From the NCBI RefSeq assembly GCF_002355735.1, contig NZ_AP014879.1, positions 2,108,001 through 2,172,000 on the forward strand: 64,000 bases of DNA, written 5' to 3'. Shown here one piece after another: positions 3,970 to 28,747 of this stretch. A program made the position numbers and the translations under genes. The notes under the pieces are model-generated. The model was not told where the DNA came from and did not search any database. It saw only the letters and a program-made list of their open reading frames with translations. The DNA comes from Sulfuricaulis limicola (GTDB lineage Bacteria; Pseudomonadota; Gammaproteobacteria; Acidiferrobacterales; Sulfurifustaceae). Positions within the stretch are counted from its first letter, which is position 1; each line of letters starts with the position of its first letter.

Positions 3970-4047
3970 AACCGCCAAGGCGCCAAGGTCGCCAGGAAAA
4001 GCAATATAGATATGAAAAATCTTGGCGTTCTTGGCGTCTTGGCGGTT
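3970..4047. repeat. Inverted repeat built of CGCCAAG units (nusA/infB spacer)
   Basis: Arms 3970-3996 and 4021-4047 are 27 nt each and complementary at 23 positions, with several of the differences being G.T-compatible transitions. Each arm has three CGCCAAG-like units at 8-9-nt spacing. The 24-nt centre is A/T-rich. A related array occurs at 27245-27380. It fills most of the nusA/infB spacer. Confidence 0.88.
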
Positions 4048-16876: not shown

Positions 16877-16886
16877 ATGATCACTC

Positions 16887-16980
16887 GCCGCAAAGACGCA
16901 AAGAGCGCAAAGGAAGTTGAAAATCAAAAACAAAATCTGTTGTTCTCATTTTTTCTTTGCGTTCTTCGCGCCTTTGGGGC
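16887..16980. repeat. Inverted repeat built of CGCAAAG units (nuoI/nuoJ spacer)
   Basis: Arms 16887-16913 and 16954-16980 (27 nt each) are complementary at about 22 positions. Each arm carries three CGCAAAG-like units at 8-9-nt spacing. The 40-nt centre is A/T-rich. The element fills most of the 113-nt gap between nuoI and nuoJ, which is otherwise a tightly packed operon. Confidence 0.85.
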
Positions 16981-26392: not shown

Positions 26393-27151
26393 TCAATCGG
26401 CGGCCCGGCAAATCGTCAGGAACTCTTCCGCCTGCAACGATGCCCCGCCGATCAAACCTCCGTCGATGTCCGCCTGGGCCAGAAGTTCCTTCGCATTGCT
26501 GCCCTTCATGCTGCCGCCATAAAGAATGCGCGTGTTTTCCGCCACGGCCTTATCCCGGACCGCCAGGCGGCTGCGGATAAAACGATGCACCTCCTGCGCC
26601 TGCTGCGGCGTGGCCGTCTTGCCGGTGCCGATGGCCCAGACGGGTTCATAGGCGATCACGGCATTCCGGAAACTGGCGATTCCGTGCCTGTCCAGAACGG
26701 CATCAAGCTGGCGCGCCACTACCGCCTCGGTCTGATTCGCCTCACGCTCCTGCAGGGTCTCACCGACACATAATATAGGTATCAGGCCCGCGGCCTGGGC
26801 GGCGCCGTACTTCTCCGCCACCACGGCATCGGTTTCGCCATTCAGGGTGCGCCGCTCGGAATGACCGACAATAACATAAGTGCAGCCGTAATCCCTGAGC
26901 ATCGGGCCGGCGATTTCACCGGTATAGGCCCCGGATTTGTGCACGGACAGGTTCTGCCCGCCCCAGGCAGCCGGACTGCCGGCCAGTTTCTCGGCGGTCA
27001 GGGGAATCAGGATATACGGGGGGCACACGGCGACTTCCGCCCTGGACGCAGCGCTCACGCCTTTCCGGATGCCGTCCAGCAGGGTCGCTGACTCGCTCCG
27101 CGAGCCGTTCATTTTCCAGTTGCCCGCTACCAGCGGCCGGCGCTGCACCAT
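26393..27151 (-). CDS. tpiA: Triose-phosphate isomerase
   Basis: 252-residue TIM-barrel enzyme interconverting dihydroxyacetone phosphate and glyceraldehyde 3-phosphate. The substrate Lys is in the N-terminal GNWKMNG, the electrophilic His in VGHSERR, the catalytic Glu in AYEPVWAIGTGKTATPQQ (which includes the flexible loop), and the phosphate-binding C-terminus is GGSMKGSNA and GLIGGASL. It is upstream of secG in the same direction. Confidence 0.98.
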   Translation of the reverse strand: MVQRRPLVAGNWKMNGSRSESATLLDGIRKGVSAASRAEVAVCPPYILIPLTAEKLAGSPAAWGGQNLSVHKSGAYTGEIAGPMLRDYGCTYVIVGHSERRTLNGETDAVVAEKYGAAQAAGLIPILCVGETLQEREANQTEAVVARQLDAVLDRHGIASFRNAVIAYEPVWAIGTGKTATPQQAQEVHRFIRSRLAVRDKAVAENTRILYGGSMKGSNAKELLAQADIDGGLIGGASLQAEEFLTICRAAD

Positions 27152-27241
27152 CGGAACCTCCCCGTGTTCGTGTCAAATCTGCCGAAAAACGGGCGCGATG
27201 TTACCGATGCCGGGGGCGGATTGCAATTTTATAAGGGTTTT

Positions 27242-27382
27242 AAACCGCCAAGACGCCAAGAACGCCAAGTTTTTCTATGTTGCGGCCCAGGGTGCAACGA
27301 AAATCGTTGCACCCGTTCGGCGGCGCGAATGTTCACTGAACATTCGCGAGGACCCCGCCTCACCCTTGGCGTCTTGGCGGGT
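27242..27382. repeat. Composite inverted repeat with two nested perfect hairpins (tpiA/glmM spacer)
   Basis: Outer arms of CGCCAAG units (27245-27260 and 27365-27380) are perfect 16-nt complements; the left side has one extra unit. Inside lie two perfect 11-bp stems with 3-nt loops: 27290-27300 with 27304-27314 (loop AAA), and 27324-27334 with 27338-27348 (loop ACT). The first inner hairpin and its right flank strongly resemble the hairpin at 60976-61010. No coding potential is seen in this 237-nt gap. Confidence 0.9.
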
Positions 27383-27388
27383 AATACT

Positions 27389-28747
27389 TCAGGCCGCCGC
27401 TTCCGCGGCGCTTTTGACGGTATCGGCGAGATGCCGGCTGAGGCGCTCGACCTGCGCGGCGTTGCGCCCTTCGACCATGACGCGCACCACCGGCTCGGTG
27501 CCGGAGGCGCGCAGCACCACGCGTCCATTGTTCGCCAGCTCGCTTTCGACTTCCCTGATGGCCTGCTGCACGCGCGGTGATTCCTTGACGTCGAAACGCC
27601 GTGCCATGCGTACGTTGATCATGGTCTGCGGATAGATCTCAAGACCGCTCCGGAGATCGGCGAGGCTCTTGCCGGAACCGCACATGGCCGCCAGCACCTG
27701 CAGCGCGGCAATGATGCCGTCGCCCGTGGTAGCGCGGTCGAGACAGATGATATGGCCGGAGGTCTCTCCCCCCAGCTCCCAGCCGTGCTCGTTGAGCAGG
27801 CTCAGCACGTAACGGTCGCCGACCGCGGCGCGCTCGAAAGGCACGCCCAGCCTGCCGCAGGCATGCTCCAGTCCGAGATTGCTCATGAGCGTGCCGACCA
27901 CCCCGCCGCGCAGGCGTCCGGACTGCTTGCGGTCCGTGGCGATGATATAGAGCAGGTGGTCGCCATCCACGATGTCGCCGCGGCTGTCGACCATGATCAC
28001 CCGGTCACCGTCGCCATCCAGCGCGATCCCGAGATCGGCCTTGTGCGCCAACACGGTCTTCTTGAGAAAAATCGGAAAGGTGGCGCCGCACTCGCGGTTG
28101 ATGTTGAAACCATCCGGTTCGTTCGCGACCGCGACCACCTCGGCACCGAGCTCGCTGAAAACCAGCGGTGCCAGGTGATAGGCCGCGCCGTTGGCGCAGT
28201 CGACGACGATCTTGAGGCCCTCGAGACTCAGGCGATGCGGAAAGGTGCTCTTGCAGAACTCGATGTAGCGGCCGCCGGCATCGTCATAACGCTTGGCCTT
28301 GCCGAGCGCCGAGGGGCCGGCAGTCGTCAGCGGCTCACGCATCTTTTCCTCGATCGCCAGCTCGACTTCGTCCGGCAGCTTGGTGCCCTCGGAGGAAAAA
28401 AACTTGATGCCGTTGTCATCGAAAGGATTGTGCGAGGCGGAAATCACGATACCGGCACGGGCGCGAGCGGTGCGCGTGAGATAGGCGATGGCCGGCGTCG
28501 GCATCGGCCCGAGCAGGCGGATATCCACGCCGGCAGCGGACAATCCGGCCTCGAGCAGCGACTCCAGGAGATAGCCGGAGACACGCGTGTCCTTGCCGAT
28601 CAGAATCTTGGCGTGGTCGGCCGTGCCCTTGCCGAGCACGCAACCGGCGGCCCAGCCGAGCTTGAGCACGGTTTCCGGCGTGATCGGCTCTTCGCCCACC
28701 TTGCCGCGCACACCATCAGTACCGAAAAAATGACGTTTCATGTTCAT
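27389..28747 (-). CDS. glmM: Phosphoglucosamine mutase
   Basis: The 452-residue enzyme converts glucosamine-6-phosphate to glucosamine-1-phosphate for UDP-GlcNAc synthesis. The phosphorylated Ser is in [19 protein letters not shown]. The metal loop is [13 protein letters not shown], the sugar loop is GGETSGHI, and the C-terminal phosphate loop is VRASGTEP-like ([15 protein letters not shown]). It begins [15 protein letters not shown]; the second Met is an equally likely start. It is downstream of folP, as in E. coli. Confidence 0.98.

Follow-up and report, generated by a model that had tools for sequence, protein, structure and literature searches.

What is the 136-bp palindromic element that separates a glmM-like gene from a tpiA-like one in Sulfuricaulis limicola (genome of 2,864,672 bp, one contig), and how did its parts come together? 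The element occupies positions 27245 to 27380 of the window, by which we mean the whole 64,000-nucleotide stretch of DNA analyzed, and it is inserted between protein genes, not in an rRNA gene; the names glmM and tpiA are those that we presume for the neighboring ORFs from their sequences. The initial annotation described CGCCAAG outer arms enclosing two perfect 11-bp hairpins with 3-nt loops, and this description, including its coordinates, is correct. The features of the locus are as follows.

26393 to 27151, minus strand: tpiA-like ORF, the downstream neighbor
27230 to 27244, no strand: left A/T-rich end TATAAGGGTTTTAAA, a degenerate version of the family end AATATGATTTTGAAC (from the flank profile of 28 elements of the same genome)
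27245 to 27269, plus strand: left arm, three CGCCAAG units
27270 to 27279, no strand: spacer from left arm to core (from the alignment of composites)
27280 to 27364, plus strand: core, a REP-like two-hairpin cassette that elsewhere in the genome also occurs alone
27290 to 27314, plus strand: hairpin 1, with a stem of 11 bp and a loop of 3 nt (fold, covariation)
27319 to 27359, plus strand: hairpin 2, with an extended stem (fold, covariation)
27365 to 27380, minus strand: right arm, two CGCCAAG units, inverted
27381 to 27391, no strand: right end, reaching into the glmM stop codon
27389 to 28747, minus strand: glmM-like ORF, the upstream neighbor

The outer arms, CCGCCAAGACGCCAAG and CTTGGCGTCTTGGCGG, match at 100% over 16 bp (27245 to 27260 and 27365 to 27380), and the third CGCCAAG unit of the left arm reaches 27269. 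The inner stem of hairpin 2 (27324 to 27334 paired with 27338 to 27348) is 11 bp long around a 3-nt loop, or 12 bp if the loop is taken as 1 nt, and is extended by GGCGG (27319 to 27323), which pairs with CCGCC (27355 to 27359) over a bulge. Folded as a single strand, the element reaches −84.5 kcal/mol, compared with a mean of −48.4 for shuffled sequences (z of −9.05; 0 of 200 shuffles equal it), and stability is high on both strands. The hairpin stems covary, with changes on both sides in 11 of 25 pairs and with 34 covariation cells, whereas shuffling gives 7.9 and sliding no more than 7; these figures come from 26 of the 30 located core copies (L298, L300, L302, and L306 were excluded for simpler alignment) and from a structure string in which column 42 was paired with 75, the intended partner being 76.

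So stable a fold, covarying stems, and an element end only 8 bp from the glmM ORF would all suit an immobile structure that acts chiefly as an RNA or DNA hairpin at gene ends (an mRNA stabilizer, an RNase III site, or a terminator). No terminator-like site was found at the element, however, nor any Rfam match in positions 26900 to 27700, and the many dispersed copies with conserved ends, together with their presence or absence among congeners (both described below), lead us to consider this explanation improbable.

The sequence CGCCAAGACGCCAAG has 82 matches in the S. limicola genome at up to one mismatch, versus none for the reversed control pattern. A strict inverted-pair pattern recovers 22 elements there (three are built of CGCAAAG units), and 13 of the 57 genomes of the order contain elements of this pattern. 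The arms enclose short, A/T-rich loops, and past each arm a conserved A/T-rich end extends for ~15 bp, reading AATATGATTTTGAAC at one end of the element and GTTAATTTCTTTTT at the opposite one (profile of 28 elements of this genome). The hairpin cassette lies inside such arms in six copies in the same genome and stands alone in four (1974443, 1988800, 2450665, and 2748757).

These distributions bear on the view, put forward in the initial annotation, that small palindromic modules were inserted sequentially into an existing one. Nesting itself holds up: outer arrays occur without the hairpins (the 22 strict-pattern elements) and hairpins without the outer array (the four solitary cassettes), complete composites are not the only form encountered, some sites are empty in relatives, and the copy at 1292368, which has a different core subtype set between the arm and the outermost unit, is an independent nesting. 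Stepwise insertion of two separate hairpin modules is not supported, as the stand-alone copies in the genus carry both hairpins as one cassette of ~85 bp. Hairpin-2 modules lacking hairpin 1 are present in more distant genomes (L045, L046, and L051). Paired hairpin-2-like modules around a spacer, in a BIME-like arrangement, occur in other genomes of the order (L045, L051, and L083).

Of 26 copies aligned from eight genomes, 22 have an identical junction of core and right arm, as judged by eye, and the composite thus appears as a unit that is old and now spreads as one. Its arms are written in different unit sequences, or dialects, among relatives: CGCAAAG in genomes G008, G007, and G003 and in one G002 copy, CGCCAGG in the other G002 copy, and CGCAGAG or CGCGGAG in two of the four G045 copies. 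Across relatives, both arms switch unit together and the core stays similar; left arms are damaged in some composite copies (three of six in G008).

A palindromic core with a bulged stem that is also found alone recalls REP and BIME elements moved by a Y1 (RAYT) transposase, and the S. limicola genome has three Y1_Tnp genes. The core motifs are not found as flanking pairs at these genes (0 of 3 are bracketed by the core), and no GTAG/CGTC tag is evident by eye at the core ends when these are set against the description in the accessible part of the source (PMC3733652), such that we regard movement by a RAYT as very improbable indeed. The flanks of the three Y1_Tnp genes (L091 to L093) hold other repeats, which are unrelated to the core.

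Empty sites exist in relatives. The window site is unoccupied in G007 and G002; G008 has a CGCAAAG-armed element with an unrelated loop there, other repeats are present in G006 and G005, G003 and G001 are not comparable because the neighboring gene differs, and a search of G004 for the site gave no match. At a second composite site (1044907), no element is present in G006, G007, G002, G005, G004, and G001, and G008 has one of CACAGAG type; a third (1050997) is empty in G006, G007, G002, G005, and G001, with elements of other units in G008 and G003. Each of the three composite sites compared is occupied in the closest relative, G008, by an array element in a different dialect; there the arms may have been rewritten in place or the sites hit again. 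We recognized no target-site duplication at the elements, the flanks of which have diverged.

We suspected that genes for GxxExxY proteins sit in arrays of this kind, and we then tested this. The profile TIGR04256 (GxxExxY) has 20 matches in 13 of the 57 genomes of the order, and a search with it finds no such gene in the S. limicola genome, which is 99.9% complete. The matched genes are flanked on both sides by inward-facing arrays whose units include CGCAAAG, CGCCAAG, CGCAGAG, CACAGAG, CGCAGATGAA-like sequences, and ACAGGATT. In a dialect-blind test, the 250 bp upstream of each gene was aligned to the reverse complement of the 250 bp downstream, with shifted loci as controls. Within the order, 18 of 19 loci exceed the highest of 70 shifted controls (maximum of 15), with L106 and L113, two pieces of one G007 gene, counted once. 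A phylum-wide set (30 of the 58 listed matches) has 24 of 30 loci above its own control maximum of 13 (117 controls). In a set from many phyla (80 named loci, kept from 586 relatives, of which 3 were dropped for flanks that were too short), 54 of 77 loci exceed a control maximum of 15 (403 controls); this set includes Methanothrix and Methanosarcinales records, of which only the Methanosarcinales record passed. At a common threshold of 15, 94 of the 126 GxxExxY loci pass (18/19, 22/30, and 54/77 in the three sets) and 32 fail.

Inward-facing CRCNRRG arrays occur on both sides of 79 of the 126 loci, versus 1 of 584 shifted controls, and outward-facing ones on both sides of 6. When each arm was compared with the arms of other loci, its own partner surpassed all 40 sampled foreign partners in 47 of 126 cases and ranked in the top 5% in 83, a result that backs the matching of arms in part only, because dialects are common to several loci. 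A tally of gene orientation was discarded as unreliable owing to shadow ORFs. Array elements occur without a detected GxxExxY gene in S. limicola, G018 (78% complete), and G004 (82% complete), and the gene occurs without a matching miniature element, by the strict pattern, in G014, G009, G021, and G035. Overall, the association of miniature arrays with GxxExxY elements is well supported. In the literature searched, which lay mostly outside subscription journals, we found no description of this pairing; in the accessible part of one paper, a gene near an RT is annotated as GxxExxY at a place where another tool saw cas4 (PMC8934634). Separately, one GxxExxY match (L172) has an unusually long open frame (449 amino acids) within 50-bp near-identical inverted arms built of yet another unit.

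The GxxExxY protein, for which the NCBIfam entry reads simply "GxxExxY protein," is a small PD-(D/E)XK (Cas4/RecB-like) nuclease. It has ~115 residues, matches both TIGR04256 and PF13366 in all five sequences scanned (PF13366 above its cutoff), and contains the catalytic D...ExK signature, with D62, E72, and K74 invariant in 49 of 49 sequences. The AF2 model (pLDDT of 95.4) most resembles the solved fold 4ic1 (SSO0001), which we take to be a Cas4, with a VIA Z score of 9.5 over 98 residues, a root mean square deviation of 3.8, and a Foldseek E-value of 0.011, all Foldseek E-values being above 0.001; Hjc resolvases and other nucleases score VIA Z values of 6 to 7, and fold families missing from the comparison list carry no meaning. 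A likeness between a predicted and a solved fold would by itself show no function, and the GxxExxY profile, when searched against PDB sequences, matched none. The dN/dS ratio is 0.07 in both pairs with unsaturated dS (dS is saturated in six other pairs), which shows that the gene is under purifying selection.

In the genus, full-length elements and miniature ones share their ends. In G006, the GxxExxY element (L102) has CGCCAAG arms, and its left end agrees with miniature elements of S. limicola at 95% over stretches of up to 40 bp, A/T end included; the arm in the window (G000:2135243-2135274) matches positions 1462 to 1493 of L102 at 97% over 32 bp. Likewise, the arms of the GxxExxY element in G007 recur at dozens of positions in that genome with 82 to 100% identity. 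Both insertions lie at stop/start junctions and are absent elsewhere: that of L102 from S. limicola, G003, G001, and G007, and that of G007, between genes that we presume to be trpE- and trpG-like, from G002 (flanks 92% identical), S. limicola, and G005. At the trpE/trpG site, ~26 bp of the target was apparently replaced, and no duplication is seen.

Bracketing alone is no mark of a mobilizer, however, since genes for four-helix-bundle proteins matching TIGR02436, presumably the family of S23p from 23S rRNA intervening sequences, are bracketed too. Inverted arrays of other units enclose 11 of 15 of these genes (control maximum of 13), the set being 15 of 17 matches after exclusion of L264 (score of 8.0) and L270 (too short). 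Because none of the 15 has CRCNRRG pairs, the arrays may be a general framework in which each gene has a dialect of its own. The bracketed TIGR02436 loci include L256 to L259, L261 to L263, L267, L271, and L272, with units such as AAGTGGC, GTGAACG, and GATCAGC.

Taken further, the arrays could be a generic hairpin framework produced by host processes (slippage, template switching, and gene conversion between arms), within which the GxxExxY and four-helix-bundle genes are passengers that gain from their location, as in rRNA intervening sequences. The bracketed TIGR02436 genes fit this explanation, as do the lack of visible target duplication and the elements of other units and other loops at all three composite sites in G008, which look as if arms had been rewritten. 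Yet the class of unit tracks the gene (inward CRCNRRG arrays at 79 of 126 GxxExxY loci versus 0 of 15 TIGR02436 loci), miniature and nuclease-carrying elements have ends in common, up to ~40 bp with the A/T ends, and the nuclease has invariant residues and is under purifying selection; on balance, we think a host-made framework rather unlikely.

Tight bracketing, shared ends, and empty sites together make the window element best read as a member of the GxxExxY array elements, namely, a MITE-like member with a REP-like cassette inside, which we call nonautonomous because neither the element nor its genome holds a GxxExxY gene; we put the probability of this reading at roughly 0.6. The ends of such elements would be inverted arrays of 7- to 9-nt units, and the full-length form would encode the GxxExxY nuclease. 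A REP-like two-hairpin cassette would have entered the loop of one array element, and the composite would then have spread as a single unit. We hypothesize that movement is due to the GxxExxY nuclease, which may recognize the arrays, or a hairpin or cruciform formed by them, and may move elements in trans; S. limicola would have lost a former copy of its gene. The lack of GxxExxY in this genome, the absence of a visible target duplication, and the bracketed TIGR02436 genes count against this hypothesis.

GxxExxY array elements may constitute a class of mobile DNA, found in many phyla, that has so far attracted little notice. A fuller version of this proposal, to which we give slightly less than even odds, is that in bacteria and archaea a Cas4/RecB-like nuclease, and not a classical transposase, moves array-bounded elements that have lineage-specific dialects, with arms switching together, and mobilizes in trans large miniature families, some with nested REP-like cassettes. 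If true, this would give the widely distributed GxxExxY family a testable role and account for a large group of intergenic hairpin arrays that are as yet unassigned, and it raises the question of how both arms change unit jointly while the cargo stays constant.

Several known systems resemble parts of this arrangement. Like MITEs, the window family is short and multicopy, has terminal inverted repeats, shares its ends with longer gene-carrying elements, and varies in presence among relatives; unlike MITEs, its ends are arrays of 7- to 9-nt units in many dialects, its associated gene encodes a Cas4/RecB-like nuclease and no known transposase, and no target duplication is recognized. The intervening sequences of 23S rRNA also have a small protein gene enclosed by hairpin-forming complementary borders, that of S23p according to the available part of the source, but they lie in rRNA, are removed by RNase III, and encode a different protein, whereas the elements described here lie between protein genes (PMC4990558). 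GTAG/CGTC REPs are likewise palindromic cassettes, and REP dimers nested within longer palindromes are reported in the portion of that work at hand; the present elements differ from that description in having no evident tag, in the existence of cassette-free outer palindromes, and in the absence of a RAYT link (PMC3733652). The TAACTGA heptamers of Beggiatoaceae similarly form intergenic arrays, but these are direct repeats, with one inverted case, and the accessible text reports no bracketed gene (PMC4679880).

In all, four array elements, written in three dialects, lie in the 64-kb window. Besides the composite, there are a short CGCCAAG array element without the core (3972 to 4046), a short element with CGCAAAG units (16886 to 16980), and an inverted ACAGGATT array (970 to 1049), whose dialect also brackets the GxxExxY genes L104, L105, and L109 to L111.
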